Positions 8,825 through 40,380 of a stretch of DNA of 64,000 bases are shown in pieces. Each line of letters begins with the position of its first letter. Within the stretch, counting starts at the first letter, position 1. Below the pieces are notes generated by a model, which saw nothing but the letters and a program-made list of their open reading frames with translations, searched no databases and was not told the DNA's origin. The DNA lies in the NCBI RefSeq assembly GCF_003260995.1, contig NZ_CP030040.1, positions 1,781,620 to 1,845,619 of the forward strand, written 5' to 3'. The position numbers and the translations under genes are program-made. This DNA comes from Acetobacterium sp. KB-1 (GTDB lineage Bacteria; Bacillota; Clostridia; Eubacteriales; Eubacteriaceae).

Positions 8825-8837
8825 AGCATATGCTCGC

Positions 8838-22540: not shown

Positions 22541-22550
22541 TTGTTGCTCC

Positions 22551-23678: not shown

Positions 23679-23704
23679 GTTATTTCCCTCATCTAATTTC
23701 TCTT

Positions 23705-24022
23705 CTATTTTTCATTTCCTAAAACCTTCATTTCAAGCGGCCGCATCGGTGCCCGGGAAACCGCCGGTTCCAGATCCAGGGGGGATACCCCAAGTTCCCG
23801 GGCTACAATCCCCTTGATCAAGCGGCCGCAGGTTTGCCCCTGACAGAGACCCATACCGGTTCTTAAATAGCGTCTGATTTCTGTTAATGTGAACATCCCA
23901 TCGTGAACCGCTTTTCTGATTTCGCCTTTGGTGATTTCTTCACAGCGGCAGATGATCATGGCGTCATCTGCCGCGGGGAGATAGTCGCCCAGATTTCGTG
24001 ATCGATCCTTGTTATTTTGCAT
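23705..24022 (-). CDS. BFD-like [2Fe-2S] protein
   Basis: 105-aa protein with the C-x-C-x32-C-x4-C pattern of the bacterioferritin-associated-ferredoxin fold: Cys25, Cys27, Cys60, Cys65. In HcnABC-like and hydroxyproline dehydrogenases this domain is usually fused to the end of the NAD-binding subunit; here it is a free protein encoded 3 nt after that gene. GGAGG 8 nt upstream supports the start. Predicted electron transfer between flavins. Confidence 0.88.
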   Translation of the reverse strand: MQNNKDRSRNLGDYLPAADDAMIICRCEEITKGEIRKAVHDGMFTLTEIRRYLRTGMGLCQGQTCGRLIKGIVARELGVSPLDLEPAVSRAPMRPLEMKVLGNEK

Positions 24023-24025
24023 CGT

Positions 24026-25612
24026 CTACACCTCCTGTGCCGCTTTAAAAAAGCGGGCCTTCATGGCCATGCTAAGCGGCACCTTCATGGTTACTAAACT
24101 GGTTTTGTCAAAAGCCGGAAGACTTTTGACTTCCGTAATTTCCGCCCCACAGATTTCTTGGCCACTACGATCCAGGGCCATTCCCTGGCATCCTTTTTCC
24201 GGCAGCGGGTAAAACTCATAGGGGATGGTCACCATTGCTGTGCCCGCTTCTTCGTCCTCTTTGACTAAGAAGATCGACTGTCCGGAACAGGCCGCCACGC
24301 AGAGGCCGCAACCCGAACACTGAGCATCGGCCCTGACTACGGGCAGGGAGGTGATTTTTTCACCGATGCTGATACACTTTTTCGGACAGGCATCCTGACA
24401 GGGGTTACAGGGAATATTTTGGGAACATTCGATAACGGGACGAATCCCTTTTGCTTTTGTGACGCCCGGATAGCTTAAAACTTCTTCGTTGGTGAGATAG
24501 CCTCGTGTCAACAAACTCTGGGAAACCTCATAGCCTTCCTCGGTGTGTTTGACTTCCCGGCCCTTGTTTTCGGGGCTAAACATCCCCGCTCTTAGAGCCA
24601 GCAACGCCTCTTCCAACTCCCGGACCTTATCGGTTAGTTCTTCGCTGTCAATAAAACCTAACCGGGCAGCCGCCGCCACACCGGCGATACGGCCCTCAAT
24701 CATGGCTGAGCTGGCCTCTTCAATTCCGGAAACATCACCCGCCACAAAGATTCCCGCTATCGAAGTTTCGCCATAAGAATTACCCATTGGCACATAACCA
24801 CCCTTGGCGGGATTTTCTTCCATCGCACAACCAGCCATTTTAAGTAACTGGGACATCGGCGATAAACCGACCGCCAGACAGATAGTATCGACCTCAAAAT
24901 CTTTTTGTGATCCCGGGATCACCTGCCATTTTGAATCCACCTCAGCGATGCTCACTCCGGTAACATAGTCATTACCATGGGCCTTGATAATGGTGTGGGA
25001 CAAATAAAAGGGCACCCCGCAGCGGGCCAGCTTGGCAGCATGAACTCCATAGCCGCCAATTCTGGGAGCGGCATCCACCAAGGCCACCACCTCACAGCCA
25101 GCCTGCAGTAATTGATAGCTGACCACCAGCCCGACGTTACCAGTTCCCAGCATCAGCACTTTTTTCCCCGGTCGGATGCGGTGGAGATTCATCATCGTCT
25201 GAGCCGCTCCGGCACCAATAACGCCAGGTAAGGTCCAACCATCAAAGGTGATCATATTTTCGGAGGCACCGGTTGCTACGATAATGGCATCCCCTTTGTA
25301 ATGGATCACCTCATCAGCTTGGGAAACCAGCACTTCCTTATCCAGATAGAGCCCAGCCACTACAGCATTCAGGACCACCTCGACCCCAGCAGTTTGAGCT
25401 TCTTTTAATAAATCTTCGCCAATTTTAAAGCCACGGATTTTAGCCTTATGTTCTTTTGATCCAAAAAACTTATGGATCTGTTTAAATAATTGTCCGCCGG
25501 GTCTGGCATTTTCGTCAAAAACAATGACCCGCAGTCCTCTTTTGGCCGCCTCAATGGCGGCGGATAGCCCGGCCGGACCGGCACCGACGACTATTACATC
25601 ATATCTTTTCAT
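24026..25612 (-). CDS. NAD(P)/FAD oxidoreductase with C-terminal ferredoxin domain (HcnB-like)
   Basis: 528-aa flavoprotein. FAD motif 'VVGAGPAGLSAAIEAAKRG' opens the protein and a second dinucleotide motif 'MLGTGNVGLVVSYQLLQAGC' lies near residue 155. 'IFVAGDVSGIEEASSAMIEGRIAG' is the closing FAD site. After residue ~395 comes a Cys-rich part with 'CNPCQDACPKKC' and 'CSGCGLCVAAC', predicted to hold two [4Fe-4S] clusters. This ferredoxin extension is unusual for HcnB/SoxA-like subunits and suggests electrons leave to ferredoxin or NAD rather than oxygen, as an anaerobe needs. Confidence 0.87.
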   Translation of the reverse strand: MKRYDVIVVGAGPAGLSAAIEAAKRGLRVIVFDENARPGGQLFKQIHKFFGSKEHKAKIRGFKIGEDLLKEAQTAGVEVVLNAVVAGLYLDKEVLVSQADEVIHYKGDAIIVATGASENMITFDGWTLPGVIGAGAAQTMMNLHRIRPGKKVLMLGTGNVGLVVSYQLLQAGCEVVALVDAAPRIGGYGVHAAKLARCGVPFYLSHTIIKAHGNDYVTGVSIAEVDSKWQVIPGSQKDFEVDTICLAVGLSPMSQLLKMAGCAMEENPAKGGYVPMGNSYGETSIAGIFVAGDVSGIEEASSAMIEGRIAGVAAAARLGFIDSEELTDKVRELEEALLALRAGMFSPENKGREVKHTEEGYEVSQSLLTRGYLTNEEVLSYPGVTKAKGIRPVIECSQNIPCNPCQDACPKKCISIGEKITSLPVVRADAQCSGCGLCVAACSGQSIFLVKEDEEAGTAMVTIPYEFYPLPEKGCQGMALDRSGQEICGAEITEVKSLPAFDKTSLVTMKVPLSMAMKARFFKAAQEV

Positions 25613-25654
25613 AACCCACCTATTCCTTTTTCTTGTCCTTAACCCAGGTTGTTT

Positions 25655-25963
25655 TTACTTTTTTGCACCCACCCCGTATTGGGTTAAAACAGTCATTCCT
25701 GCCACCAGCGGGGTGACACAGGTTCGTACATTTGGTTTGCCATCCACAACCATAACACAATCGGTACAGCGTCCAATGGCACAAAAGATGCCTCTTGGGG
25801 TATTTTCTTTGTGCGTGTGGCGTAAAGCCATCACCCCAGCCGCCCGTAGCGCCATGGCAATGGGTTCGGCTTCGTAACCTTCTATCGGTTTTCCATCAAA
25901 GTAAAAGGTGACCAAGCGGCCTTTATTGCTTTCACCCAAAATCGGGTGTTCTGTGATTCTCAT
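25655..25963 (-). CDS. [2Fe-2S] subunit of amino-acid dehydrogenase (HcnA-like)
   Basis: 102-aa plant-type ferredoxin-like protein. Cluster ligands Cys61, Cys66, Cys69 and Cys82 are in 'GIFCAIGRCTDCVMVVDG' and 'VRTCVTP'. This matches HcnA and the N-terminal part of sarcosine oxidase alpha. AAAGGAG 6-7 nt upstream of ATG. Lies 27 nt after the ornithine-cyclodeaminase-family gene and 42 nt before the HcnB-like gene. Confidence 0.88.
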   Translation of the reverse strand: MRITEHPILGESNKGRLVTFYFDGKPIEGYEAEPIAMALRAAGVMALRHTHKENTPRGIFCAIGRCTDCVMVVDGKPNVRTCVTPLVAGMTVLTQYGVGAKK

Positions 25964-25990
25964 TTTGATGCTCCTTTCAGTGATAACGAT

Positions 25991-27124
25991 TTATGCCAGA
26001 TAGGGTTCGTCCCAGAGGTTCAGCTTGGTTCCGATCCCTTTTTCAAGGGCCTTGCGATAAAGTCTTGTACCCCAGGCAATGTCTTCCACCGGCATGCCGC
26101 CGACGGTGTAAAGAATGATCTCATCCTCTGATTGCCGGGCCGGTGTTCTGCCGGCAATAATGTTACCCAGATCGCTGACATCCTCGGGTTTCATGATTCC
26201 TTTTTCAATCAGATCCATGTAGTGAACAGCTAATAATCCGACAATTTCATAGCGCGGTGCGGGTAATTCTTCACTCCAGGCTTCGTAGAGTTTGAAATTA
26301 TCAACCACATTTCTAGCCCGATTTAAGATAAAATCGTCATCAAACCGAACATTTGCCGGCATACAGAATAAGGTGCCGGGTTTAATCCATTCTTCTTTAA
26401 TATAGGGATAGGACTCAGAACCCACCGATCCCGATGTTGCCACACTGACAATATCAGATCCTCTGACCGCTGCTTCCATGGTATCCACAATTTCAATGGT
26501 TTTAATCTGCGGAAATTCTCTTTTAACATAGTCCGCATAGGCTTCGGCAGTGGCCCTGCGGCGGCCATTTATTTTTATGGTATCGATCGTTGGACAGGTC
26601 ACCATAAACGACGCCAAAGCAGTTTTATTCATGACCCCAGGGCCAATGATCCCCACCACCCGTGAATTTTTTCGGGCCAGATATTTGGCACCGACTCCGG
26701 GAATCGCGCCGGTGCGAATGGCACTTAAGATATTCGCCGACATCAATGCCATCGGAGCCCCCGTCTCTTTGTCATTTAACATCACCGTCAGAATCGACCG
26801 CGGCAGACCTTTTTCCTTATTACTGGTATTCGACCCATACCACTTCATTCCGGCCATATCAAATTCACCACCTAAATAGGCTGGCATAGCCATATAGCGT
26901 CGATCCGGTCCATCAAGGGGCATATTGGGAAAGGGTGAGCTTTCCGGAAAGGACAGCATAATGCCGTGGGAGTTCCGGTTTGCTCCGCCCATAATATAAT
27001 CGCCATCGCTCATCAGTTTAAACATTTCAATCATCGTGTCCACACAGCCGGCCATATCCAAAACCCCGGCTCTTATCATATCCGGTTCATTTAAGTATAA
27101 AAAATCAATTTTAGTTTCCATCAT
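25991..27124 (-). CDS. Ornithine cyclodeaminase / mu-crystallin family protein
   Basis: 377-aa NAD(P)-binding protein. The family includes ornithine cyclodeaminase, alanine dehydrogenase and pyrroline-2-carboxylate (ketimine) reductases. Seen: 'RRYMAMPAYLGGEFDMAGMKWYGSN', the catalytic Lys in 'AGMKWY', 'LMSANILSAIRTGAIPGVGAKYLA', and the dinucleotide motif 'VVGIIGPGVMNKTAL' (less usual GPGVM). It resembles proteins annotated as tyramine oxidase subunit B. Next to an imine-forming dehydrogenase, a ketimine reductase or cyclodeaminase role is reasonable but unproven. GAGGAG precedes the double ATG. Confidence 0.82.
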   Translation of the reverse strand: MMETKIDFLYLNEPDMIRAGVLDMAGCVDTMIEMFKLMSDGDYIMGGANRNSHGIMLSFPESSPFPNMPLDGPDRRYMAMPAYLGGEFDMAGMKWYGSNTSNKEKGLPRSILTVMLNDKETGAPMALMSANILSAIRTGAIPGVGAKYLARKNSRVVGIIGPGVMNKTALASFMVTCPTIDTIKINGRRRATAEAYADYVKREFPQIKTIEIVDTMEAAVRGSDIVSVATSGSVGSESYPYIKEEWIKPGTLFCMPANVRFDDDFILNRARNVVDNFKLYEAWSEELPAPRYEIVGLLAVHYMDLIEKGIMKPEDVSDLGNIIAGRTPARQSEDEIILYTVGGMPVEDIAWGTRLYRKALEKGIGTKLNLWDEPYLA

Positions 27125-27906: not shown

Positions 27907-28026
27907 AACCCACCTCCGTATGCTTAAATTATAGCCTCACTGAAAGAGGAAGGCAAGGAGAATTGCTGATCCTTGTGATCTCAATCGTTAATTTTCCTGA
28001 TTGACTAAATACTGCGTTTATAATTT

Positions 28027-28833
28027 TTACTTTGTCAGCGGCCCAATTTTTCCGGCCCGGTATGCTTTGCTGTATTTGCGGCAATGTTTATCCCGACCCA
28101 ACAAGGCCTCGGTGGCAAAAATTGTCCCCATCATATCGCGGTTCATCGGGTCCATCACTGCCGAGTCCATCCCGGCCTGAATGGCATAGGCTAAAGCATT
28201 TTTATTAATCAACGACCGAAGCGGCAGGCCAAAAGAAATGTTGCTGATCGCACCGGTTACATGAATGGTTGGATATAGTGCTTTGATGGCTTTAATTTCT
28301 TTTACAAAATTCAACAAGGACTGATTGTCCGTTGACAATGCCATCACACAGGGATCAATATGCATACGTTCCGGAGCGATGCCATATTTGGCCGCCTTTT
28401 TCACCATCGTTGTGGTAATGTCAAGCTTTGTCTGTAAATCAGTGGGGATACCGTTGTTATCGCAGGTAAGTCCGACTACCTCCCAGCTATTGCCTTCCAT
28501 TAGGGGCAGCAAGACCCCGCACTTGTCGCCTTCTTCCGAGATCGAATTGAGCATCCCCGGTTTGTTGGCATATTTTAAAACGGCCTCAATCACCCGGGGG
28601 TTGGGGCTATCAATGCATAAGGGTGTATCGGTAACATCCTGAACTACTTCAATCAACCATTTCAGGGTTTCAATTTCGTATTCCGGGGCGGTGCTGGCAC
28701 ATACATCGATAAAATCGGCTCCGGCTTCAGTCTGTTTCACTGCCCGATTGGCAATAAAAACCGCATCTCTTTTTTCGATCGCTTCTTTCACTGCGGGAAT
28801 GGTACCATTAATCTTTTCTCCAATGATAATCAT
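28027..28833 (-). CDS. Methyltetrahydrofolate:corrinoid methyltransferase (copy 1)
   Basis: 268-aa TIM-barrel pterin-binding protein of the MtgA/MtqA/AcsE family, transferring methyl groups between a methyl-corrinoid protein and tetrahydrofolate. 'MIIIGEKINGTIPAVKEAI' opens the barrel; 'GADFIDVCAS', 'LCIDSPNPRVIEAVL', 'DPCVMALSTDN' and 'VTGAISNISFGLPLRSLINKNAL' are pterin-site motifs. AGGAG 6 nt before the ATG at 28833 excludes the track-length start 8 codons upstream. A 23-bp hairpin separates it from copy 2, its closest neighbour. Confidence 0.9.
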   Translation of the reverse strand: MIIIGEKINGTIPAVKEAIEKRDAVFIANRAVKQTEAGADFIDVCASTAPEYEIETLKWLIEVVQDVTDTPLCIDSPNPRVIEAVLKYANKPGMLNSISEEGDKCGVLLPLMEGNSWEVVGLTCDNNGIPTDLQTKLDITTTMVKKAAKYGIAPERMHIDPCVMALSTDNQSLLNFVKEIKAIKALYPTIHVTGAISNISFGLPLRSLINKNALAYAIQAGMDSAVMDPMNRDMMGTIFATEALLGRDKHCRKYSKAYRAGKIGPLTK

Positions 28834-28871
28834 CTCTATCTCCTGTTTTTTTGTCATTCACAAATTCTAAA

Positions 28872-28894
28872 AGGCACTCTTAAACGGAGTGCCT
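28872..28894 (-). terminator. Intercistronic hairpin between the two methyl-THF methyltransferase genes
   Basis: AGGCACTC (28872-28879) pairs with GAGTGCCT (28887-28894) and the minus strand continues TTTTAG. The T-run is short, so partial termination or mRNA processing is more likely than full termination. Confidence 0.5.
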
Positions 28895-28972
28895 GAAACA
28901 AACATGCATTTTTATCGCAAACGCTCTATCACTACAAATATAGCGAGATCTTTGTTATCAAGTTAAGTCAGA

Positions 28973-29770
28973 TCAAACTTCCAGTTTTTTCTTCCGATAG
29001 GCCTTCAGGTATTTTACATTAAAGTCATCTCGTCCCACCAGGGTTTCGGCCGCGCAAATGCTCGACATCATTTTTTTGTCTAGGGGATCGATTAGGAGTC
29101 CGTCCAGTCCTTTGGCGATCGCCATTACCGCGAAATTTCGATTGAGGAATTTGCGTTCCGGCAACCCATAGGAAATGTTTGATAACCCACAGATCGTATG
29201 AATTCCTTCGTAGTTTTTCATAACTTCGGAAACTGAATCAATAAAACCCATGCCAAAGGTTTTATCGGTAGAAATCGGCTGTACCAGGGGGTCAACAAAG
29301 ATGTTTTCCAGCTTAACATTGTTTTGAACTAGTTTATTAATCAGAACATCTGCAATTTTTAGCCGTTGTTCCATGGTTTCCGGCATTTTTTCGTCATCCA
29401 TACAGAGCGCCACAATTTTATAAGAGGTTCCGGCAACAAGCGGTAAAATGGCATCGAGCCGATCTTTTTCAAGCGAAATGGAGTTAATCATCACATCATC
29501 TCCGCTGAGTTTTAGTCCCTGTTCGATCACTTTCGGATCGGGACTGTCGACTGAGCAGGGAAGCGTAGTGACGGCTTTTATATTGTTGATCAGCCACTCC
29601 ATGTAGTGGCCTTCTTTGCCGACAAATATACCGGCATTCACATCGATATAAGTCGCTCCGGCTTCGGCTTGATCGAGCGCCAGTTTCTTTATAAAGCCGT
29701 GATCTTCACGCTTAATGGCATCGCCAACCGCCTGGCGGCTGGCATTAATTAGTTCTCCGACGATAATCAT
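28973..29770 (-). CDS. Methyltetrahydrofolate:corrinoid methyltransferase (copy 2)
   Basis: 265-aa paralogue of copy 1 with the same motif order: 'MIIVGELINASRQAV', 'AGATYIDVNAG', 'CSVDSPDPKVIEQGL', 'DPLVQPISTDK', 'ICGLSNISYGLPERKFLNRNF'. GGAG upstream of the ATG. It begins 12 nt after the corrinoid protein gene, the usual pairing of MtqC with MtqA, so it is the likely dedicated partner in moving methyl groups to THF. The presence of two such enzymes for one corrinoid protein suggests different roles or two substrates. Confidence 0.91.
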   Translation of the reverse strand: MIIVGELINASRQAVGDAIKREDHGFIKKLALDQAEAGATYIDVNAGIFVGKEGHYMEWLINNIKAVTTLPCSVDSPDPKVIEQGLKLSGDDVMINSISLEKDRLDAILPLVAGTSYKIVALCMDDEKMPETMEQRLKIADVLINKLVQNNVKLENIFVDPLVQPISTDKTFGMGFIDSVSEVMKNYEGIHTICGLSNISYGLPERKFLNRNFAVMAIAKGLDGLLIDPLDKKMMSSICAAETLVGRDDFNVKYLKAYRKKKLEV

Positions 29771-29782
29771 TGGGCGCTCCGT

Positions 29783-30406
29783 TTATGACGCCATCAGGTT
29801 TCTGCCCAGCATTACCGCTTCACCGGCATCCGGGGCATAGCCATCGGCACCAATATCGTTGGCAAAATCCTGACCTACCGGAGCGCCGCCGACCATTGTT
29901 TTAACCGGTAAACCAGAGCTTTTAATGGCGGAAACGGTTTCTCCCATGGCTGCCATGGTGGTTGTTAAGAGTGCCGACAGACAAATCAGATTGGCACTTT
30001 TTTCTTTTGCGGCATCAATAAATTTTTCAGCTGGAACATCAATACCCAGATCGATCACTTCAAAACCAGCCCCTTCCATCATCATCGAGACGAGGTTTTT
30101 GCCGATATCGTGTCGATCTCCGGCAACCGTACCAATAATCACAATCCCTCTGCCGCTGTTATCACCTTTTAATAGTGGCTTGATCATATCTAATCCGATT
30201 TTCATAACGTTGGCGGCCATCAGCATTTCCGGCACAAAAAGAGTTCCTGCCGAGAACAACCGCCCCACCTCGTCCATTGCACCAATGAGCCCTTCATTTA
30301 AAATCACACTGGTATCAACCTCATCATCAATGGCTTCCTGCACAGCTGTCACTACTTCATCATCATCTAATTCTAAAATGGCATCATATATCTTTTGTAC
30401 ACTCAT
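29783..30406 (-). CDS. Corrinoid (methyl-carrier) protein, MtqC/MtgC-like
   Basis: 207-aa methyl carrier. The N-terminal helical cap (residues ~1-85) is followed by a Rossmann-type cobalamin domain with the D-x-H-x-x-G motif (Asp97, His99, Gly102), His99 being the lower cobalt ligand. 'LSALLTTTMAAMGETV' and 'MVGGAPV' are further cobalamin-site motifs. AAGGAG 7 nt upstream of the ATG. It accepts methyl groups from the MttB-type proteins encoded across the divergent promoter and passes them to methyl-THF methyltransferase. No RamA-type reductive activator is in the window. Confidence 0.93.
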   Translation of the reverse strand: MSVQKIYDAILELDDDEVVTAVQEAIDDEVDTSVILNEGLIGAMDEVGRLFSAGTLFVPEMLMAANVMKIGLDMIKPLLKGDNSGRGIVIIGTVAGDRHDIGKNLVSMMMEGAGFEVIDLGIDVPAEKFIDAAKEKSANLICLSALLTTTMAAMGETVSAIKSSGLPVKTMVGGAPVGQDFANDIGADGYAPDAGEAVMLGRNLMAS

Positions 30407-30456
30407 TTTTTTCTCCTTAATCTTTGTTTAATTTCAAATCGATCTTAAATCCGTTT

Positions 30457-31314
30457 TTATTTAACTTCAGCTAATTGCTTTTCCAGTTCAGCGGCTTCTT
30501 CATCGGCAATGACGTAGGTATGTACCGCATCATCAGGAAAGGCACCATTGCGCACTTCATCACAAAAAGCGGTAAAACCCTTTAGTAACTCAGCACCCAC
30601 ATTGGCATATTTTTTCACAAATTTAGGGGTAAAATCATCGTAGTAGCCGACCATATCAGCATAAATTAATAATTGACCGTCAGTATGCGAACCAGCACCA
30701 ATTCCCAGCACCGGAATACTCAGGCGCTCGGTAATGGCCTTACCAACCACTGCCGGTACCCCTTCAACCAGAATAAAGGAAGCCCCTGCCGCTTCAATGG
30801 CCAGTGCCTGTCGCAACAATTCCATCGCCGCGCCAGCACTTTTTCCCTGGGCCTTGTAACCGCCCATTTGGGCCGCAAATTGGGGGGTTAAACCAATATG
30901 GCCCATTACCAGAATACCGACATCGGAGATCGCTTTGATCCGTTGGCACACCGAATCGGTGCCGCCTTCCAGTTTAATCGCATCCACCAGCGATTCTTTC
31001 GTGAATCGCCCGGCATTAAAAACCGCTTCCTCGTTGGAGATCTGATAGGACATGTAGGGCATATCGCCAACAATAAAGGTATTCGGGGCACCCCGGCGGA
31101 CCGCCGATGAATGGGCAATCATGTCATCCATGGTCACTGGAAACGTCGTTTCATAACCTAATGTGACCATTCCCAGCGAATCCCCCACCAGTATCATATC
31201 TACGCCAGCCCGTTCTTCATATTTTGCGGTTAAATAATCATACCCGGTGATGTAAACTATCTTTTCTTTTCTTTCGGCCATTTCTCTAAAATTAATAATA
31301 CTTTTTTTCATCAT
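30457..31314 (-). CDS. panB: 3-methyl-2-oxobutanoate hydroxymethyltransferase (PanB)
   Basis: 285-aa TIM-barrel enzyme that transfers the C1 unit of methylene-THF to alpha-ketoisovalerate to give ketopantoate; the reaction is reversible. Metal and catalytic residues are retained: Asp45 (VGDSLG), Asp84 (VGDMPY), Lys114 (IKLEGG) and Glu184 (LVEGVP). AAGGAG precedes the ATG pair. PanC and PanD are not nearby; instead it sits between a corrinoid protein and an opine-dehydrogenase-like gene in a catabolic cluster. Either a stray pantothenate gene or, more interestingly, a C1-handling enzyme of the pathway, possibly run in reverse. Confidence 0.9.
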   Translation of the reverse strand: MMKKSIINFREMAERKEKIVYITGYDYLTAKYEERAGVDMILVGDSLGMVTLGYETTFPVTMDDMIAHSSAVRRGAPNTFIVGDMPYMSYQISNEEAVFNAGRFTKESLVDAIKLEGGTDSVCQRIKAISDVGILVMGHIGLTPQFAAQMGGYKAQGKSAGAAMELLRQALAIEAAGASFILVEGVPAVVGKAITERLSIPVLGIGAGSHTDGQLLIYADMVGYYDDFTPKFVKKYANVGAELLKGFTAFCDEVRNGAFPDDAVHTYVIADEEAAELEKQLAEVK

Positions 31315-31335
31315 AAGCTCCTTATTATTTTAATC

Positions 31336-31408
31336 AACCTCAAGTCAGTTTCCCTATTTGTCAAACCGCCCTGCCATCTGCTGATAAAGCCGATGGCAGC
31401 TTGAGGTT
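31336..31408 (-). ncRNA. Two-stem RNA structure between panB and the opine-dehydrogenase-like gene
   Basis: Outer stem AACCTCAAG (31336-31344) / CTTGAGGTT (31400-31408) encloses an inner stem CTGCCATC (31371-31378) / GATGGCAG (31392-31399), which stacks directly on the outer stem. No T-run follows, so it is not a normal terminator; an mRNA stability or processing element is suggested. It does not match a riboswitch class I recognise. Confidence 0.5.
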
Positions 31409-31445
31409 CTTTATGCTTGTTTCCGGATCAGCACAAATGCTCTTT

Positions 31446-32663
31446 TTATTTCGTTTTTCCGGTTCTTAAATAATCGTTAAGCTCTTCCTTGGTCATCTTG
31501 TCAATGCCAATATATTCTAAGGTATAGCCATTGGCGATTAAATCTCTGCCCAGAATTGCCGATGCCAGACTGATCATTGAATCGACTACTGGTGTGTTAA
31601 CGCCATAGGTATCGCCCAACTGTTGATAGACAAAGCATCCCACCGGGATATCTTCAGTGATATAGCGGTTTTCCATCGTAAATGGTCCGGTGCCGTATTG
31701 GATTGGATCTTGTTTATCAAACGTTATTAAATAGTCAAACCCCATATATTCCTGACCCAGGACATTCTCCCGGGAGAAGAAGTGTTCTTTTTCATAGGGT
31801 TGAATCCCCACCCCAATGGTGTCAGCCAGGGCACATTCTTCCTGATAAAAGGTATATTGAACCTGGGAAATAGAAGGGCAATACGCGTGGGAATAAATTG
31901 AGAATTTGAATTTATCTTCACCAAAAATCGTTCCAAAGTTTTCCATCGTCGATACCCCCAGAATCGCTCCCGGGCAATGAAGAACCGGATTAACATTGGA
32001 AAACCCGGTATCTAAAACGGTATCCCCAGCTACGGCACCGTCACCTTCTGTCACGGCATCCATTGACGGCAGGTATTTAGAGCTTTCGATAAAGGCTTTG
32101 GTATCCGTTGCGGGCATTGCTGCACCCCGGAGTGTAATGGCCCGATAGTAAACCCGGATCTTATGGGTAATGACGCCTCCTGGCATTTCGACCCGGCTAC
32201 CATAGGTCGAACTTGACCATCCACCGACAATCACATTTTTTGTACAGCCCGCTTCGCGCATCATTTTACGGAGGATCAGACTGCCAAAATTATCGGGAAA
32301 AATATGAATAACCTGACCATCTTCGAGACAGGGAATCAGTTTTTCAAAAAAAGGTTTGTGTCCAAAGGTTGGCGTAGCGATCACAATAATGCCAGCACCC
32401 TTAACTGCTTCTGCCACATCGGTGGTGACCTTGTCCATTTTGGCAAAACCTTCACGCTCAAAACCATAAAGATTGACTTGTTCGCCGAAGAATTTAATCC
32501 CAACTTTTTCCACATTCTTGAGTGTTTTTTCGGCAAAAGGCTCAAAATCGCAAATTCTTACCTTGGCTCCCCCTAAGGCACAGTCTCCGGCAATTGCCTT
32601 TCCGACTGCACCGGCACCTAACACTGCAATTGGTTTTTCACTTAAATAACTCATGTCTGCCAT
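31446..32663 (-). CDS. Opine/octopine dehydrogenase-family NAD(P)-dependent dehydrogenase
   Basis: 405-aa protein. N-terminal Rossmann domain with 'IAVLGAGAVGKAIAGDCALGGAKVRICD' (residues ~12-39) and a helical C-terminal domain of the NAD/NADP octopine/nopaline dehydrogenase family, which shares its fold with ketopantoate reductase (PanE). Opine dehydrogenases reversibly join an amino acid to a keto acid by reductive amination. The order transporter - this gene - panB on one strand suggests a joint pathway with PanB: oxidising an opine, or oxidising pantoate-like hydroxy acids as PanE in reverse. Substrate unknown. AAAGGAG 7-8 nt upstream. Confidence 0.8.
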   Translation of the reverse strand: MADMSYLSEKPIAVLGAGAVGKAIAGDCALGGAKVRICDFEPFAEKTLKNVEKVGIKFFGEQVNLYGFEREGFAKMDKVTTDVAEAVKGAGIIVIATPTFGHKPFFEKLIPCLEDGQVIHIFPDNFGSLILRKMMREAGCTKNVIVGGWSSSTYGSRVEMPGGVITHKIRVYYRAITLRGAAMPATDTKAFIESSKYLPSMDAVTEGDGAVAGDTVLDTGFSNVNPVLHCPGAILGVSTMENFGTIFGEDKFKFSIYSHAYCPSISQVQYTFYQEECALADTIGVGIQPYEKEHFFSRENVLGQEYMGFDYLITFDKQDPIQYGTGPFTMENRYITEDIPVGCFVYQQLGDTYGVNTPVVDSMISLASAILGRDLIANGYTLEYIGIDKMTKEELNDYLRTGKTK

Positions 32664-32745
32664 ATTTTTCTCCTTTTATCATCTCTATTATTTATTGCTT
32701 AATCGTTTTCTTAACGCTAATGAACAAGCAAGGTTTGTGCCAAGA

Positions 32746-34386
32746 TTACTTTTTCGTTTGTTTATCCAAATTGAACCATTTTTTATGAATTTTCAGATCC
32801 GCCAGCTCCGCAGCGGCTTCATCAGCAGCGGCGGCTGCCTCCTGTTCCATAAAATCAGCATACTCTATTTCGTCTCGTTTGAGCTTACCTGAGAACAAAT
32901 GGTAGAGGAATCCCAGAATCATTGCCAATTCGATAAAGAGGATCGGGAAACCGGCAATCGTCTTAACGATTTTGATCCCGTCGATACCGCCACTGATTAC
33001 AAATACCAGCGAAATCAAACCGATGAAAATCCCCCAGAATACTTTGATTGGCAGGGGCGCTTCTTTTACACCTTTGGATTGTTTTAATGACATGGTCGAA
33101 ATTGTCGATGTCATCGAATCCGCCAGGGTAATAAATGATAAACCGATAGTGACCAGCATGATAATGCGAATTAATTCAGTAAAAGGCAAGAATTCAAAGA
33201 TATACATCATAAACGCCTGGGCACCATTGTCGGCCAGGAATCCCGACATATCAGCAATACCTCGGAGTTCCAGGTCTAATGCCAATCCGCCAAATACACT
33301 AAACCAGAGAATCCCGAACATTGCCGGCAGAATAACATTGACCGTAATAAACTGTCTGATGGTTCGGCCATAGGATAATTTAACCAGGAACAAACCAACA
33401 ATTGGTCCAAAAGATAACCAGTCAACCATCCAGTACATATCCCACCATTGCGGCCATAAATCACTGTCAATTATTGGTTGGGTAAATAAGCTTAGATCAA
33501 CAAAGTTATTAATAAAATATCCCAATGACTGCGTAAACAGATTGAATATATAAGCCGTTGGTCCGGTAATCAAAACAAAGATCATCAAAGCAATAAAAAT
33601 CCAGGCATTCTTATCACTGAGCCAGGAAATTCCACGGTCTAAGCCAGTTGCACTTGAAATCGTATAGGATGCAATAATGACACAGGCAATGACGGCCCAT
33701 ACCGCCGGACCTGGTTCGATCCCAAACACGAAATTGAGTCCACTGCCAATTTGCAGCAGCCCATATCCCAGCGATCCAGCCACACCGCCACAAATGGCGA
33801 ATAGGATAATACCGTCAATAACTGTATTGATTTTTGAATTGAGTTCTTTACCATCATTTAAATAAACAAGACCGGCACTGGCGGTGTAGCTTTTGTTCAT
33901 ATTATAGTAAGCATAGCCAATGGCAATTCCCGCTACCGCATAGATCGCGTAAGGTGAAAACGACCAGTGCAAAAAGGATTTACTCATCCCCCAGATAACG
34001 GCGTCCAGACTTCCGGCTTCGAGGCCAACCGATGGCGGTGGTGCGAAAGTATGCATCAGCGGCTCGGTGGCTCCCCAGAAAACGATCCCGGTTCCAATCC
34101 CCGCACAAAGCGAAATCGCCCACCAGATCCAGGTTCGATATTTTGGTTTTGCATTTGCGCCCCCAAATTTAATACTGCCAAAGGGATGGACAAATAATAA
34201 CACCATACAGCCAACAAAAATCAATACCCCCAGAGAAACCATCCACCCGGCATTTGCCATTAACGCGATAAAGAAATCAGTCATTCTGGTTGTAAACTCA
34301 TCCGGCGAAACAAAGCCGATAATAAGGATTATTCCCATTAATACAATTGGAATCGCAACGGGTACAATACGTATTCTTTTTAACAT
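32746..34386 (-). CDS. BCCT-family betaine/carnitine/choline transporter
   Basis: 546-aa integral membrane protein with 12 predicted helices. The signature 'WWAISLCAGIGTGIVFWGATEPLMHTF' (helix 3-4 region) contains the Gly-rich unwound segment and the Trp/aromatic residues that form the quaternary-ammonium site in the family, followed by 'LHWSFSPYAIYAVAGIAIGYAYYN'. A charged Ala/Glu-rich cytoplasmic tail ends the protein. First gene of the leftward unit, behind a sigma-54 promoter. Predicted to import a trimethylammonium or N-methylated amino acid for catabolism rather than osmoprotection, because of its neighbours. Confidence 0.92.
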   Translation of the reverse strand: MLKRIRIVPVAIPIVLMGIILIIGFVSPDEFTTRMTDFFIALMANAGWMVSLGVLIFVGCMVLLFVHPFGSIKFGGANAKPKYRTWIWWAISLCAGIGTGIVFWGATEPLMHTFAPPPSVGLEAGSLDAVIWGMSKSFLHWSFSPYAIYAVAGIAIGYAYYNMNKSYTASAGLVYLNDGKELNSKINTVIDGIILFAICGGVAGSLGYGLLQIGSGLNFVFGIEPGPAVWAVIACVIIASYTISSATGLDRGISWLSDKNAWIFIALMIFVLITGPTAYIFNLFTQSLGYFINNFVDLSLFTQPIIDSDLWPQWWDMYWMVDWLSFGPIVGLFLVKLSYGRTIRQFITVNVILPAMFGILWFSVFGGLALDLELRGIADMSGFLADNGAQAFMMYIFEFLPFTELIRIIMLVTIGLSFITLADSMTSTISTMSLKQSKGVKEAPLPIKVFWGIFIGLISLVFVISGGIDGIKIVKTIAGFPILFIELAMILGFLYHLFSGKLKRDEIEYADFMEQEAAAAADEAAAELADLKIHKKWFNLDKQTKK

Positions 34387-34539: not shown

Positions 34540-34555
34540 AGCAAGCTTTATGCCA
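34540..34555 (-). promoter_or_regulatory. Sigma-54 promoter of the leftward (BCCT) unit
   Basis: Minus strand TGGCAT-AAAGC-TTGCT, with the invariant GG and GC of -24/-12 elements. About 150 bp before the BCCT start. The surrounding ATTGGCATAAA-G-CTTGCTA is identical to the rightward promoter apart from one base. Confidence 0.85.
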
Positions 34556-34998: not shown

Positions 34999-35014
34999 TG
35001 GCATAAACCTTGCT
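34999..35014 (+). promoter_or_regulatory. Sigma-54 promoter of the rightward (racemase-MttB) unit
   Basis: TGGCAT-AAACC-TTGCT, a good match to TGGCAC-N5-TTGCA, 56 bp before the start of the racemase-like gene. Confidence 0.85.
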
Positions 35015-35069: not shown

Positions 35070-35849
35070 ATGCAAAGAGATTTAAAAATTAATTACATGA
35101 CAACCCGAAAAAACCATACCTGCTATGGTATGGGTATTGGTATCATGGTATTAGATGATGCCTATCCCGGTTTTCCTGGTGATGTCCGCAATGCCAGTGC
35201 CTGGGGTTTTCCGATTCAATATGAAATCGCCAGGGGCGTCGATAATTATACCCTGGTCTGGGAACAGGATAAAAGCCCCTGCCGGGAACCCATTATCCAG
35301 GCCGCAAAAAACCTGGAGCAGATGGGCTGTCGTGCGATTGCCGCTGAATGCGGCTATTTTGCCTATTTCCAGCAAGATGTGGCCGCGGCTGTCGATATTC
35401 CTGTTTTTATGTCCAGTTTGCTGCAAGTCCCCTTTATTCAGCAATTGATTGGACCCACCAACGCGGTTGGGATCATCTGTGCCCAAAAACGTTTTTTGAC
35501 CAATACGCATCTGGAAAAAGTCGGGATTGATCTCAATAGCAACTTCTACATTGCCGGCGCCCAGGATGAATATGGTTGTCCGCAGTTTGACACGCTATGG
35601 GATCATGAAAAACGTCCTGTAATACCAGAAAGTTACTATGACGAATCAGAACAGGATATGATTCGGATCACCAAAGAATTTACTGCCAAACACCCGGATA
35701 TTAAGGCAATCATGTTAGAATGTACCGGCATGCAGCCCTTTGCCAGAGCGATTCAACGCGCTGTTGATTTGCCTGTATTTAGTTGGGGAACCTTGCTTGA
35801 TTACGCTTATTCCTGCGTTTCTCACCGGGATTATTACGGTCATATCTAA
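35070..35849 (+). CDS. Asp/Glu/hydantoin racemase-superfamily protein
   Basis: 259-aa protein. The superfamily contains aspartate/glutamate racemase, hydantoin racemase, maleate isomerase and arylmalonate decarboxylase, which use paired cysteines. Both cysteines are visible: 'AIAAECGYFAYF' and 'AIMLECTGMQPF'. AGGAGG precedes the ATG. First gene of the MttB unit, under the sigma-54 promoter, so it probably epimerises or isomerises the substrate or the demethylated product. The exact reaction cannot be told. Confidence 0.82.
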   Translation: MQRDLKINYMTTRKNHTCYGMGIGIMVLDDAYPGFPGDVRNASAWGFPIQYEIARGVDNYTLVWEQDKSPCREPIIQAAKNLEQMGCRAIAAECGYFAYFQQDVAAAVDIPVFMSSLLQVPFIQQLIGPTNAVGIICAQKRFLTNTHLEKVGIDLNSNFYIAGAQDEYGCPQFDTLWDHEKRPVIPESYYDESEQDMIRITKEFTAKHPDIKAIMLECTGMQPFARAIQRAVDLPVFSWGTLLDYAYSCVSHRDYYGHI

Positions 35850-35907: not shown

Positions 35908-37338
35908 ATGAAACCTTATGAAAAATATGTGTCAAAATCCGATCTGCAGGTTATTCACGAGGAATCACTGCGGATCCTCAGCGAAGTTGGGATAAAATTT
36001 GAACACCCGGAAATTCTGGATATTTTTAAATCTCACGGTGCCCGCATTGATGGGAACACCGTCTTTCTTGATGAAAAAATGATCATGGCCGCGATTTCAA
36101 CCATTCCCGAAACCTTTACCATTGAAAACTCCAAAGGAAATCATACGCTTGGCGGCGGGAGCCTGATTCTGATGCCTGGCATCGGCAATATTTTCCGTCT
36201 GGAGCAAGGTCATTTACATAAAATGACCAATGATGATACGGTCGATCAGTTCAAACTCTCCGATACCAGTGATGTCATTAACTGTAACTATTTTAATATT
36301 TTTCTCGATGACAAGAGCCTGACCCAGGATGAAAGGGTATTTAGTCCGATCGCGATGATCTTAAAGTATTCCAATAAAACGGCCTTACATTTAATGGCTA
36401 ATACCTTTCCGTTAAAATCCGGGGTCCGGGAGTCGTTTAAACAGGGTCTGGAACTGATTGAAAAATTCGAAGGCCGCAGCGGTGTTTATAATAATATCAT
36501 CCATATTAATTCGCTATCGCCCTTATGCTTTGACCATGATCCGCTCGATAAGTTCCTGGTTGCTGCTGAAATGAATCAGCCGGTCTGGTTTTCCCCTTGT
36601 GCAATGCCCGTGCTGACCGGTCCGCCATCAGTTGCCGGACTAATTGCGATGACAAATGCTGAAGTTCTAGCCGGTATGGTCATGTCCCAATTGGTTAAAC
36701 CTGGGCTGCCGGTGGTTTACGGACAGACCTCAGCCTCTACCAACCTGCGAACGGTTCAACTCAGCATCGGTGCCCCCGAAACCGCCTTGATTGCTTATGC
36801 CACCCGGGGGCTCGCCGATTTTTATAAGCTTCCCTGCCGTACCGGCGGCGGCTTAAGTGATGCCAAGGATTTTGATATCCAGGCCGGGATTGAATCCGAT
36901 ATGATGATTCGCTCAACCCTCGAAGCTGCTCCAGATCTGGTGCTCCATTCGTGTGGAATCATGGGCAGTTTTAATATCCTGAGCTTTGAAAAATTCCTAA
37001 TTGATGAAGACACCTACCGAATGAATCGTCGGCTTCTGAGCGGAATCAAAACTGAGGAAAGCTATCTCTGTCATGATCTCATTACCAAAATCGGCCCGCG
37101 CGGTAACTTCCTTCAGGGTCGAACCCCGAAAATGTTTAAAGAGGAATTTTTTGTTCCCAAATACTTCAACAAAGAAGACCCCAACCAATGGCAGGAACAT
37201 GGCAGTAAACCGGTTCTCAGAGATGTCCAGGCCGCAGTTAAAGAGCGCTTGGCCAGCTATACGCCACCGGATATTACCTGCGAACAGGCTGATCTTTTAA
37301 ACGACTACATTCCCACCTGTTACCGGGAGCGCATCTAA
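35908..37338 (+). CDS. MttB-family (non-pyrrolysine) amine methyltransferase, copy 1
   Basis: 476-aa TIM-barrel methyltransferase of the trimethylamine methyltransferase superfamily (COG5598). Characterised non-Pyl members demethylate glycine betaine (MtgB), proline betaine (MtpB), carnitine (MtcB) and gamma-butyrobetaine (MtyB), handing the methyl to a corrinoid protein. Typical parts: 'LQVIHEESLRILSEVGIKFEHPEILDIFKSHGARIDGNTVF' region at the N-terminus and 'AEVLAGMVMSQLVKPGLPVVYGQTSASTN'. The frame is open without an in-frame TAG, so pyrrolysine is not used. AAGGAAG 7 nt before ATG 35908; a longer upstream reading overlapping the racemase was rejected. Confidence 0.92.
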   Translation: MKPYEKYVSKSDLQVIHEESLRILSEVGIKFEHPEILDIFKSHGARIDGNTVFLDEKMIMAAISTIPETFTIENSKGNHTLGGGSLILMPGIGNIFRLEQGHLHKMTNDDTVDQFKLSDTSDVINCNYFNIFLDDKSLTQDERVFSPIAMILKYSNKTALHLMANTFPLKSGVRESFKQGLELIEKFEGRSGVYNNIIHINSLSPLCFDHDPLDKFLVAAEMNQPVWFSPCAMPVLTGPPSVAGLIAMTNAEVLAGMVMSQLVKPGLPVVYGQTSASTNLRTVQLSIGAPETALIAYATRGLADFYKLPCRTGGGLSDAKDFDIQAGIESDMMIRSTLEAAPDLVLHSCGIMGSFNILSFEKFLIDEDTYRMNRRLLSGIKTEESYLCHDLITKIGPRGNFLQGRTPKMFKEEFFVPKYFNKEDPNQWQEHGSKPVLRDVQAAVKERLASYTPPDITCEQADLLNDYIPTCYRERI

Positions 37339-37380: not shown

Positions 37381-38796
37381 ATGGAAACAACACAAAGAAA
37401 TATTGAATTTAATGTTTTGAATCAGACCAAAATTGAAATGATTCACGAAAAGAGCATGGATCTGCTGGAAAATTTTGGCATGCAGGTTACTGGTGAGCGA
37501 ACCATTGACTGTTTAAAAAAATACGGCTGTACGGTTGACGGTGATCTGGTCAAATTCCCCAAAGCTGTTATCGATAAAGCGCTTGCCACCATTCCCAAAG
37601 AAATAACCCTTTACAACCGCGATGGCCAAAAAAGCATGGTCATCAACAGCCAAAATAACGTCTATTTTGGAACGCACTCCGATCAATTAGAAATTCTGGA
37701 TTATAAAACAAACACCGCCCGTCCCTTTGTTAAATCAGATATTAAGGACATGTGTAAAATTGCCAGTGCCTTATCCAATATCAGTTTCGTCCTATCGGTG
37801 GGCATGTGTGCCGATGTCGATCCCAAGGTTCAATCACAGATAACTTTCATCGAAACCTTAAAAAACTTTGATAAAACGATTAACTTTTCTACCAATGATA
37901 TTGGTTCACTACAAGAGATCATTGATATTGCCGCAATTGTCGCTGGCGGACACAAAGAGCTGGCTGAAAAACCCTTTATCTTTAATTACTGTGAGCCGAT
38001 TCCACCGCTGACCCATCCGGTCGAAAGCACCGAAAAATTATTTATCAGTGCAACCAATAAGATTCCCGTTGTTTATATGCCTTATTCGATGATGGGCGGA
38101 ACTGCTCCCCTTTCGATTGCCGCGGCTTTAACTCAAAACAATGCCGAAATCCTGGCTGGCGTCGTCATTACTCAGGCTGTCAATGAGGGCGCACCAATGA
38201 TCTACGGTTCGATGCCAACAATTTTTGATATGCAGACCACGATTGGCTCCTATGGTGCCCCTGAATTCCATAAATCGATCGCTGCAGCCTCTGAACTGGC
38301 TAACTACTATAACCTGCCATTTTATGGAACCGCTGGATGCAGTGATGCTAAAACCATTGATCCCCAGTCAGTCGCTGAAGTCCAAATGGAACTCTTCTCG
38401 ACCATCTTAAGCAAGGCTAATCTGATTCACGATGTCGGCGTCTTAGATCATTGTAACTCGGTGGCTCCGGCAATGGTAGTATTAGCCAATGAAATGATTG
38501 ATCAGCTGTCGGCTTATTCCAGGGGTGTTGAGGTCACCGAAAAAACCCTGGCCATGGATGTTATTAAAGGGGTCGGCCAGGGCGGCCATTATCTAAACGA
38601 AAAACACACCCTTAAAAATTTCAGAAGTATCTGGTATCCGGAATTCTTTTCCCGACGCATGGTCAATCCCGATCAGTCCGATGTGATGGAAATGGTGAAT
38701 GCCAAAATTGATGCAATTCTTAAGTCCCACGTCGTTCCCACTTTAGATCCGACCATTCTTGCTGAAATTGAAAAAATCGAACAAAAATATTTATAA
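37381..38796 (+). CDS. MttB-family (non-pyrrolysine) amine methyltransferase, copy 2
   Basis: 471-aa paralogue of the preceding gene, clearly diverged from it. N-terminal 'IHEKSMDLLENFGMQVTG' and 'AEILAGVVITQAVNEGAPMIYGSMPT' align with copy 1, but the predicted active-site segments differ ('MMGGTAPLSIAAALTQNN' against 'VLTGPPSVAGLIAMTNA'), which suggests different substrates or successive demethylation steps. No in-frame TAG. 42 nt after copy 1; a terminator follows. Confidence 0.92.
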   Translation: METTQRNIEFNVLNQTKIEMIHEKSMDLLENFGMQVTGERTIDCLKKYGCTVDGDLVKFPKAVIDKALATIPKEITLYNRDGQKSMVINSQNNVYFGTHSDQLEILDYKTNTARPFVKSDIKDMCKIASALSNISFVLSVGMCADVDPKVQSQITFIETLKNFDKTINFSTNDIGSLQEIIDIAAIVAGGHKELAEKPFIFNYCEPIPPLTHPVESTEKLFISATNKIPVVYMPYSMMGGTAPLSIAAALTQNNAEILAGVVITQAVNEGAPMIYGSMPTIFDMQTTIGSYGAPEFHKSIAAASELANYYNLPFYGTAGCSDAKTIDPQSVAEVQMELFSTILSKANLIHDVGVLDHCNSVAPAMVVLANEMIDQLSAYSRGVEVTEKTLAMDVIKGVGQGGHYLNEKHTLKNFRSIWYPEFFSRRMVNPDQSDVMEMVNAKIDAILKSHVVPTLDPTILAEIEKIEQKYL

Positions 38797-38868: not shown

Positions 38869-38925
38869 GGAATTCGTGTTATTATACTGTCAAAGTCAGC
38901 AAACCCCGAAATGGAGGGCCGTGAA

Positions 38926-40380
38926 ATGAACTCAGAAAAAGAAGCGATTATGACGACAAGCCAAACGTTTTTCCCCATTCAGGATGTCGAGCGGATTGAA
39001 GATGTCTGTATCCATGTAGTTGACAGTGACGGAAAAATTGTCTGCTATTCAAAAGGCTGTGAACTGATCGAAAATATGAAACGTGAAGATGTCATCGGCA
39101 AAAATATGTCTGACATCTATGATTATCTTGAAAATGAATCGATGGAATCCCTGGTCTTAAAAACCGGGGAAAAAGTCCAGGATGTGCATGTTAAATATAC
39201 CTCCCCATCGGGAAAAGTTGCCGATGTGATCAGTAGTACTTATCCGATTTTTTCAAGAAAAGACCCCAAAAAAGTTTCTGCTGCGATTTGTATTTATCGG
39301 GATATTTCGGCCTACATCCATATGTCGAGCACGATTAAGAAGCTACAAAATGATTTGAATACCCAGCAAATTAAAAACAATGGCACCCAATTTAGTTTCA
39401 AAGACATCATCGGAACAAGTCCCAATCTTTTAGAATGCATTCACCATGCCAAGATTGCAGCTCAGAATGCGGCGCCGATTCTGATTGCCGGACCTACTGG
39501 CACTGGCAAGGAAGTTTTTGCCCAAAGCATTCATAACGCCAGTGCTCAGGTTAACAAGCCTTTTGTAGCGATCAATTGTTGTGCCATTCCCGAACATTTA
39601 CTGGAAAGCTCACTTTTTGGAACGGTTAAGGGCTCTTTCACCGGTGCCATTGATACTATTGGTCTTTTGGAAGCAGCTGAAGGTGGCACCATCTTTCTAG
39701 ACGAAATCAATTCCATGAATTTAGAACTTCAATCAAAACTGCTTCGGGTTCTGGAAACCGGAAAATACCGAAAGGTGGGGGGCCATAAAGAAATAACCGC
39801 TAATATCCGGCTATTGAGTGCCCTTAATCAGGACCCCTTAAAAGCGATCGAAGAAAATCGACTTCGTGCTGACTTGTTTTATCGGCTGGCCGTTTTTTCG
39901 ATTCATTTACCGGCCCTCAAAGATCGGAAACAGGATATCATCAGTCTTACCCGGACCTTTTTAACCACTGAAGCGGCTGCCATGGGAAAACAGCTCTTCA
40001 CCATTTCGTTATCCGCTCAGGAGATTCTTCTTTACCATGACTGGCCGGGAAATATCCGCGAATTAAAACACGCCATTACTCATGCCATCTATTTATCCCA
40101 ATACCAGGATACCATCCTGACCCCGGATCTGTTGCCTTCCTATTTACGAAAGAAGATCACTGATAAAAAGATCTATGAAAAGTATCTGGCCGCCAGTAGC
40201 AATGATAAAAACCTCAAGAACACCCTCAACAAAATTGAAAAACAAATGATAATCGAGGTGTTACAAGAAAATGATCGAAACATTTCAAAAAGCGCCAAAG
40301 AACTGGGCATTTCTCGTCAAAATCTGCAGTATAAGATCCGCTTGCATGGTATTAAAGAATCCGCTGATGATGTATTTTAA
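38926..40380 (+). CDS. PAS-AAA+-Fis sigma-54 activator of the methyltransferase island
   Basis: 484-aa enhancer-binding protein of the RocR/TyrR-like type. PAS sensor at ~25-130. AAA+ domain has Walker A GPTGTGKE (189-196), GSFTGA loop (236-241) and Walker B GGTIFLDE (253-260). Fis-type HTH at the end ('[20 protein letters not shown]'). GGAGG lies 8 nt before ATG 38926, preferred over an ATG 5 codons earlier. No receiver domain, so it likely senses the substrate or an intermediate through PAS. Location and the two sigma-54 promoters nearby make it the probable activator of both units. Confidence 0.9.

Follow-up and report, generated by a model that had tools for sequence, protein, structure and literature searches.

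The subject of this analysis was a pair of adjacent genes in Acetobacterium sp. KB-1 (NCBI RefSeq assembly GCF_003260995.1, contig NZ_CP030040.1), encoding a PanB-family protein and an opine-dehydrogenase-like oxidoreductase (ODH). The pair lies in the window, by which is meant the whole 64,000-nucleotide stretch analyzed (positions 1,781,620 to 1,845,619 of the forward strand), part of a host chromosome of 3,988,268 bases. A preliminary description of this DNA had placed both genes in a methyl-transfer cluster, and had proposed that together they oxidize a pantoate-like hydroxy acid and release a one-carbon (C1) unit by retro-aldol cleavage. Both were found where that description had put them, on the minus strand and separated by a gap of 131 bases:

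30457..31314, minus strand: PanB of a PanC-free clade, with proposed retro-aldol hydroxymethyl transfer to tetrahydrofolate (THF); assigned from PF02548, trees and residues.
31446..32663, minus strand: ODH, proposed keto-acid-forming step; assigned from PF02317, its relative 1bg6 and alignment.

The window PanB (285 amino acids) was matched by PF02548 with 346 bits (cut-off 28.7) and by the panB equivalog TIGR00222 with 311 bits (cut-off 207.55). The catalytic residues named in the preliminary description, D45, D84, K114 (E. coli K112) and E184 (E. coli E181), were all present, together with E116, H139, Y25 and S46. Each of the E. coli PanB residues D45, D84, K112, E114, H136 and E181, which we take to be catalytic or metal-binding, was therefore retained. 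In family, length and all compared catalytic and metal residues the protein equals ketopantoate hydroxymethyltransferase (KPHMT; EC 2.1.2.11, PF02548); it differs in belonging to a separate clade, in lacking a link to PanC, in switched pocket positions and in degradation-type neighborhoods. Neither panC nor panD was next to it, as had been noted before.

The ODH (405 amino acids) was matched by PF02317 (103 bits) and by NAD_Gly3P_dh_N (31 bits), and the nearest solved sequence was 1bg6, N-(1-D-carboxylethyl)-L-norvaline dehydrogenase (CENDH; E 7e-24). In the ODH alignment H229 and D338 were conserved in 15/15 sequences and position 39 was acidic (D or E) in 15/15, which we read as NAD-type. 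The Octopine_DH alpha-helical domain and the conserved His and Asp expected of opine dehydrogenases were both found; PF02317 and the aligned pair (H229, D338) are common to the ODH, CENDH and octopine dehydrogenase (3c7a), although the likeness to opine dehydrogenases is only 88 bits by sequence and no NCBIfam model matched the ODH. No PanE or ApbA model of Pfam or NCBIfam matched it at E<=1e-5; by contrast, the PanE-type protein of locus L183 (loci are numbered with L and genomes with G) scored 285 bits. The assignment of the ODH as PanE was rejected on this ground, and the earlier term 'PanE-superfamily' holds loosely, for a related fold. Because the ODH is an opine-dehydrogenase relative with an acidic position 39 and not a PanE, it is more likely to oxidize an N-substituted amino acid than pantoate. 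Near-identical ODHs were present in records named as Acetobacterium and Eubacterium species.

That the window PanB might be the only panB of the genome, a condition under which the preliminary proposal would have failed, was ruled out, as a second panB with panC and panD (panB-panC-panD) was found about 20 kb outside the window. Its product is 48% identical to the window PanB, and it is flanked by panC-panD and by a DUF2520 Rossmann protein, a family which we take to be PanG-type ketopantoate reductases. Among 40 genomes of the family, window-type PanB (76-100% identity) was found in 16, and the ODH (88-100%) in the same 16, own genome included, with the two adjacent in 16/16. PanC was found in 8 of these and a second PanB in 7, the odd one (G027) having a partial PanC. 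The ODH-PanB pair was found in another 16 genomes, of which the 10 with PanC all had a PanB outside the clade described below, and 0/6 without PanC had a close non-clade PanB; G425, without PanC, gave one divergent PF02548 match of 149 bits. Across the 32 genomes with window-type PanB, 17/18 with PanC also held a non-clade PanB, against 0/14 without PanC for a close one (Fisher P 3e-8, with genomes counted as independent and kinship uncorrected). PanC was not found in 14/32, several of which are incomplete or of unstated completeness; its absence is firm in family genomes that are 100% complete (e.g. G004, G017, G022-G025). From this co-occurrence, ordinary PanB goes with PanC, and window-type PanB does not. 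One recipe for A. woodii medium without yeast extract includes pantothenate (PMC7242416), which fits a missing PanC.

The preliminary description had set a phylogeny against housekeeping PanB as a check, and in the trees the window PanB stood apart from the PanC-linked PanBs. In a tree of 79 different PanB rows (L164 and L202 being the same protein twice), the window PanB fell in a clade of 53 with a support of 99 in the SH-like approximate likelihood ratio test (SH-aLRT). This clade holds every PanB of the set linked to ODH, MttB, an aminotransferase, an amino-acid dehydrogenase or LarA, and 0/15 PanC-linked rows, so that neither grouping nor linkage with pantothenate-pathway genes was found for the window PanB. 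With 20 sequences added from a PanB-only search, the clade comprised 73/99 rows (SH-aLRT 99), again with no PanC-linked rows. The trees came from a quick search with SH-aLRT as the only support, the branch of E. coli PanB is very long, and the root is unsure.

Seven catalytic residues were kept in 53/53 and 73/73 clade rows and were identical in the PanC-linked group. Four other positions were switched (E. coli numbering): V152 to A in 53/53 rows of the smaller clade and 68/73 of the larger, V179 to L in 53/53 and 73/73, I212 to L in 52/53 and 64/73, and V214 to I in 52/53 and 66/73. The PanC-linked PanBs carry V, V, V or I, and V at these positions in 15/15. The loop at E. coli 143-145 also differs in the clade. 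Pocket positions were assigned by alignment to E. coli PanB and from PMC7610986, according to which the E. coli PanB variants I202A and I212A broaden the keto-acid range and V214G helps with a bulky aldehyde, not a keto acid; 212 and 214 are therefore active-site positions. The pocket residues of the window PanB are unlike those of PanC-linked PanBs, so that ketopantoate, formed from 2-oxoisovalerate by the housekeeping enzyme, need not be its substrate. The bulk gained at 212 and 214 in most clade members would, as a weak suggestion, suit a smaller aldol.

To compare gene neighborhoods, ODH loci were searched with the ODH alignment and two peptide patterns, and the best 80 of 91 were kept (79 distinct, on contigs of different length). 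Within 10 kb of an ODH at least 60% identical (42 loci), PanB was found in 34, MttB in 32, a racemase-like protein in 27 and PanC in 0; around more distant ODHs (37 loci) the numbers were 0, 1, 4 and 0. Chance neighborhood of PanB and ODH was rejected on these counts (34/42 vs. 0/37). Among loci with at least 6 kb on both sides, PanB was near the ODH in 27/29, the exceptions being L099 and L143. The linkage spans three phyla (Bacillota, deltaproteobacterial and Synergistota records) with varying gene order, and the importers vary as well, between BCCT, Liv-type ATP-binding cassette and tripartite ATP-independent periplasmic (TRAP) types. As gene order and importers differ between lineages, the linkage is not explained merely by descent of one stretch from a common ancestor. 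Of 185 genomes in the phylum to which the Synergistales genome belongs, 13 had an ODH at E<=1e-150: four are at least 79% identical, three of them with PanB close by and the fourth on a 7-kb contig, and nine are 56-59% identical, with no PanB in the stretches read, some of which are short. Window-type PanB at E<=1e-95 was present in 12/391 genomes of the class.

Two further groups of ODH loci were observed. The loci L101-L145 represent a large ODH subfamily below 60% identity, many in gut bacteria, with PanB within 10 kb in 0/37. An aconitase-X-type dehydratase lies next to the ODH in L059:9719-12223, L079:4738-7226, L222:11857-13152 and at the left end of L084, loci which mostly carry a second type of racemase-like protein; this suggests another feed into the ODH step.

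The methyl-transfer surroundings named in the preliminary description were confirmed, and comprise the following features around the pair:

28027..28857, minus strand: methyl-THF:corrinoid methyltransferase homologue 2 (PF00809; NF005719 352 bits).
28973..29770, minus strand: methyl-THF:corrinoid methyltransferase homologue 1 (PF00809; NF005719 320 bits).
29783..30406, minus strand: MtgC/MtbC-type corrinoid protein (PF02310, PF02607; NCBIfam matches below cut-offs).
32728..32742, minus strand: sigma-54-type -24/-12 element TGGCACAAACCTTGC upstream of ODH-PanB (motif search).
32746..34386, minus strand: BCCT betaine/carnitine/choline-type transporter (PF02028 411 bits).
34541..34555, minus strand: sigma-54-type element upstream of BCCT (motif search).
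34999..35013, plus strand: sigma-54-type element upstream of the racemase-MttB operon (motif search).
35070..35849, plus strand: Asp/Glu-racemase-superfamily protein, AGE (PF01177 33 bits; PRK07475 283 bits).
35908..37338, plus strand: MttB-family methyltransferase 1, without in-frame TAG (PF06253 284 bits), its start picked to match 476-amino-acid relatives.
37381..38796, plus strand: MttB-family methyltransferase 2, without in-frame TAG (PF06253 275 bits), the MttB type found most often with ODH.
38911..40380, plus strand: PAS/sigma-54 activator, proposed substrate-responsive regulator (PF00158, PF13426, PF02954).

Cysteines 94 and 218 of AGE presumably belong to the catalytic pattern of its family. 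MttB without in-frame TAG, corrinoid protein and methyl-THF transferase, the genes of an MttB quaternary-amine system, were all found, and quaternary-amine demethylation is predicted from this gene content. The element TGGCACAAACCTTGC is the sole exact TGGCAC-N5-TTGC within the window; the relaxed motif TGGCAY-N5-TTGC had four matches, three of them preceding ODH, BCCT and AGE. A sigma-54-type element was found 15-350 bases upstream of the ODH in 25/41 loci vs. 1/38 distant ODH loci (this split is one locus apart from the 42/37 used for linkage, where identities were rounded before the 60% cut), and upstream of PanB in two Desulfosporosinus loci with PanB first. The MttB operon ends with the PAS/sigma-54 activator, so that -24/-12 elements and an enhancer-binding activator, the parts of a sigma-54 regulon, are both present at sequence level. 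With such elements before ODH, BCCT and AGE, and the activator, PanB and ODH are probably switched on jointly with the demethylation genes.

The neighbors of clade PanBs were counted within 5 kb, using only rows with flanks of 4 kb or more on each side (58/68 clade rows and 9/9 others). Many gene names in these loci come from BLAST likeness to proteins of the window or loci, or from N-terminal letters, and only those named by Pfam or NCBIfam were tested with models. PanC was present in 0/58 clade rows, and an enzyme forming a 2-oxo acid in 41/58, a count biased by the many loci found via ODH. Besides ODH, these were aminotransferases (L184, L187, L234, L237) and amino-acid dehydrogenases (L189, L233). 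A search with the L184 PanB alone gave 36/398 genomes of its phylum at E<=1e-98, of which 20 loci were read; LarA or a flavin adenine dinucleotide (FAD) hydroxy-acid oxidase was near PanB in 10/20, 9 of these with a TRAP importer. Pfam identified FAD-oxidase and Fe-S subunits in L284, GD_AH dehydratases in L279 and L285 (in L282 by likeness), and in L285 also an SBD_N/NBD_C kinase and a PdxA homologue. From a C4 aldonate, a dehydratase of the GD_AH kind would form 2-keto-3-deoxytetronate, another name for 4-hydroxy-2-oxobutanoate (HOB). Clade PanB thus appears often, not always, to adjoin a step making a 2-oxo acid.

In 'Candidatus Formimonas warabiya', with eight PF02548 matches, one cluster (L184, 3210-11008) holds two MttBs, BCCT, a methionine-gamma-lyase-type pyridoxal-phosphate enzyme (below its cut-off), glycerol kinase (over its cut-off), PanB and aminotransferase. 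This cluster, seen in one genome only, would fit glyceryl-homoserine betaine, a betaine-lipid head group. Elsewhere in Formimonas, PanB was found with an amino-acid dehydrogenase, two MttBs and BCCT (L189), and beside an aminotransferase (L187).

C1 genes were found at several loci. In the Synergistales locus L195, formate-THF ligase (Fhs) and FolD come some 85 bases after PanB; in L141 the ODH is preceded by a cyclohydrolase-type FTCD_C protein, FolD and a formate channel; a formate channel lies between PanB and ODH in L086/L272, with FolD after the MttB genes; and PanB stands beside formate-THF ligase in L288 and an FTCD_C protein in L290. As evidence for direction these neighbors are suggestive only, and the folate genes could in principle run either way.

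Two side observations concern PanB neighbors. In L188 and L233, PanBs of the window subclade (69-70% identical) are near a protein of the dihydrodipicolinate synthase family (by Pfam in L188, by likeness in L233); L188 also has a glycyl-radical enzyme and a glutamine-synthetase-family protein. Outside the clade, PanB lies next to a PanE-type protein without PanC in L183:8290-10088 (with an aminotransferase and a FAD oxidase), L242:8839-10657 and L199:8907-10771, possibly a pantoate-related route.

Taken together, the window PanB is probably catabolic and used in the retro-aldol direction, giving methylene-THF from a 4-hydroxy-2-oxo acid; breakdown is favored by the oxidative enzymes nearby, the importers and the inducible regulators. 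Direction, THF dependence and order of steps are inferred from genomes. A quaternary amine would be imported by BCCT, and one or more N-methyl groups would be removed by MttB and passed through the corrinoid protein to THF by the methyl-THF transferases. AGE would adjust the stereochemistry, the ODH would oxidize what is left, an N-methylated amino acid, with a 2-oxo acid and an amine as products, and PanB would convert 4-hydroxy-2-oxo acid and THF to a 2-oxo acid and 5,10-methylene-THF. The release of C1 units by retro-aldol cleavage, as described previously, is consistent with keto-acid formation upstream and, in a few loci, with C1-folate handling downstream; the pantoate/ketopantoate part of that proposal is doubtful, as the ODH is not PanE and the pocket differs. 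HOB would fit better than ketopantoate.

The substrate is the most speculative part. Homoserine betaine is the leading candidate, although we put it well below an even chance: the ODH would give HOB, from which PanB would give pyruvate and methylene-THF for the Wood-Ljungdahl pathway, so that the folate pool would receive both methyl and hydroxymethyl carbon, with pyruvate left over. This betaine is described as the compatible solute (osmolyte) of Trichodesmium (PMC6753628, citing Pade et al. 2016). Three other substrates were set aside: valine betaine, since the 2-oxoisovalerate that the ODH would make from it offers PanB no group to release; the head group of diacylglyceryl hydroxymethyltrimethyl-beta-alanine (DGTA), a beta-amino acid and hence giving no 2-oxo acid after the ODH; and, less firmly, hydroxyproline-type routes, considered from the aconitase-X next to the ODH in L079, L222, L084 and L059, which have no hydroxymethyl group to release. 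More broadly, and somewhat short of an even chance in our judgment, the widespread anaerobe clade may pass the hydroxymethyl group of 4-hydroxy-2-oxo acids, chiefly HOB, to THF as the hub of several degradation routes, with homoserine-type betaines entering via MttB/ODH, amino acids via transaminases or dehydrogenases, and C4 hydroxy acids via LarA, FAD oxidases and dehydratases.

Several points weigh against a catabolic PanB of this kind. Aldol equilibria generally favor addition, and MttB enzymes as a rule take only the first methyl off a quaternary amine. No recognized keto-acid-forming enzyme was within 5 kb in 17/58 clade rows (L202 twice among them), nor within 5 kb or the contig part read in the other 10/20 PanB-sought loci, some of which lie among unrelated housekeeping genes. 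C1 genes were within 5 kb in 2/58 clade rows vs. 1/9 other PanB rows, which does not establish an enrichment; a frameshift divides the L195 PanB, no PanB is visible on the short contig of L141, and L290 has a weak FTCD_C protein, encoded on the other strand. In L222 the ODH and PanB lie on opposite strands, and L228 (57% ODH) has MttB and no PanB. ODH-linked PanBs do not form one clade, with 9 label changes, from which it follows that PanB types have moved between cassettes. For the pocket, V was kept at 214 in 7/73 clade rows and at 212 in 6/20 added rows, I to L brings no bulk gain vs. E. coli itself and V152 to A loses bulk; with V at 214 in those rows and shrinkage at 152, the smaller substrate is a weak suggestion. 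Several PanC-free genomes are metagenome-assembled, and absence there is weak. At two of these loci more was seen: the L195 PanB lies in two frames at 8205-9064, with an intact same-clade PanB about 70 kb away (L194), and L228:9813-13228 holds the 57% ODH, a corrinoid protein, an MttB-like protein and a TRAP importer, which may be a related degradation cluster without the C1-release step.

Four other explanations were considered; those on ketopantoate and on a THF-independent lyase share their direction with the catabolic reading, and the likelihoods assigned overlap and do not sum to one. Under the earlier reading, the ODH oxidizes pantoate and PanB gives methylene-THF and 2-oxoisovalerate from ketopantoate. 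This accords with the PanB family and its conserved catalytic residues, with PanE-type proteins at three PanC-free non-clade PanBs (L183, L199, L242), and with the clade's LarA and hydroxy-acid oxidase cassettes, which would suit a hydroxy acid such as pantoate. We consider it unlikely, given an ODH related to opine dehydrogenases and pocket residues unlike those of PanC-linked PanBs; moreover, pantoate has no N-methyl groups, leaving MttB, BCCT and the racemase unexplained.

A forward reaction, in which PanB hydroxymethylates a 2-oxo acid with methylene-THF, for biosynthesis or as a C1/electron sink, appears distinctly unlikely. In its favor, the reaction is presumably reversible, methylene-THF is plentiful in acetogens, and in most of the family relatives that were read PanB and the corrinoid protein have an EamA exporter after them. 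Against it, degradation is indicated by the importers, by regulators of the sigma-54 or IclR type and by oxidative enzymes, and also by formate-leading folate genes in some loci, though these are able to run towards methylene-THF too.

PanB might also work as a lyase without THF, setting formaldehyde free, or catalyze another C-C lyase reaction, since KPHMT is reported as an aldolase without THF (PMC7610986), and the clade differs in the 143-145 loop; folate enzymes beside PanB or ODH in L195, L288 and L141 speak against this, which we hold to be very improbable. An ordinary second panB for pantothenate synthesis, to which the TIGR00222 score above cut-off would point, is largely contradicted and scarcely credible given panB-panC-panD elsewhere in the genome, the retention of window-type PanB in the 14 genomes where PanC was not found, and the 0/58 count of nearby PanC.

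The window cluster was compared with published systems. MttB, corrinoid protein, methyl-THF transferase and BCCT are shared with MttB-superfamily clusters (MtgB, MtpB, MtcB, MtyB, MthB), including the glycine betaine cluster of strain DCMF with its BCCT-type OpuD genes (PMC9768040), to which the window adds PanB, the ODH and the racemase-like protein. Neither 'panB' nor 'opine' is used in the main text describing the choline system of E. limosum (PMC12155760), and 'opine', 'racemase' and 'ketopantoate' are likewise missing from the text on strain DCMF (PMC9768040). The HOB aldolase RhmA, used with formaldehyde in biocatalysis, carries out the same conversion between HOB and pyruvate plus C1 (PMC7610986), although RhmA-type aldolases use free formaldehyde and no folate, unlike the route proposed for PanB. 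Among the matches listed in open-licence literature, no catabolic PanB, PanB with MttB/ODH, or anaerobic degradation of homoserine betaine was described. The parts belong to known families; the proposed use would be new.

PanB is regarded as serving vitamin B5 synthesis exclusively, and a genome that carries it is predicted to make pantothenate. The clade would break this rule, as PanC was not found in 8/16 family genomes having clade PanB. If PanB does run backwards, it would open a new route by which carbon reaches the folate pool in acetogens and other anaerobes, and from a single betaine an acetogen would gain the hydroxymethyl carbon as well as the N-methyl groups. This could explain oxygen-free degradation of betaines, such as the Trichodesmium osmolyte or betaine-lipid head groups.

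Adjoining the module in the window is an amine/opine-oxidase-like operon (22130-27124, minus strand), with RidA-like, DAO/soxB-like, BFD-like, soxA-like, 2Fe-2S-type and ornithine-cyclodeaminase-like (PRK06199) genes; it is also beside the module in L054, and not in the other family loci read. At the position of window 27990-30410, several relatives carry a corrinoid protein only 45-48% like that of the window, with an EamA exporter, a UroD/MtaA-like-thioredoxin protein and a CobW protein. The window differs from these relatives in its corrinoid protein and carries one additional methyl-THF transferase, both features being common to L070.

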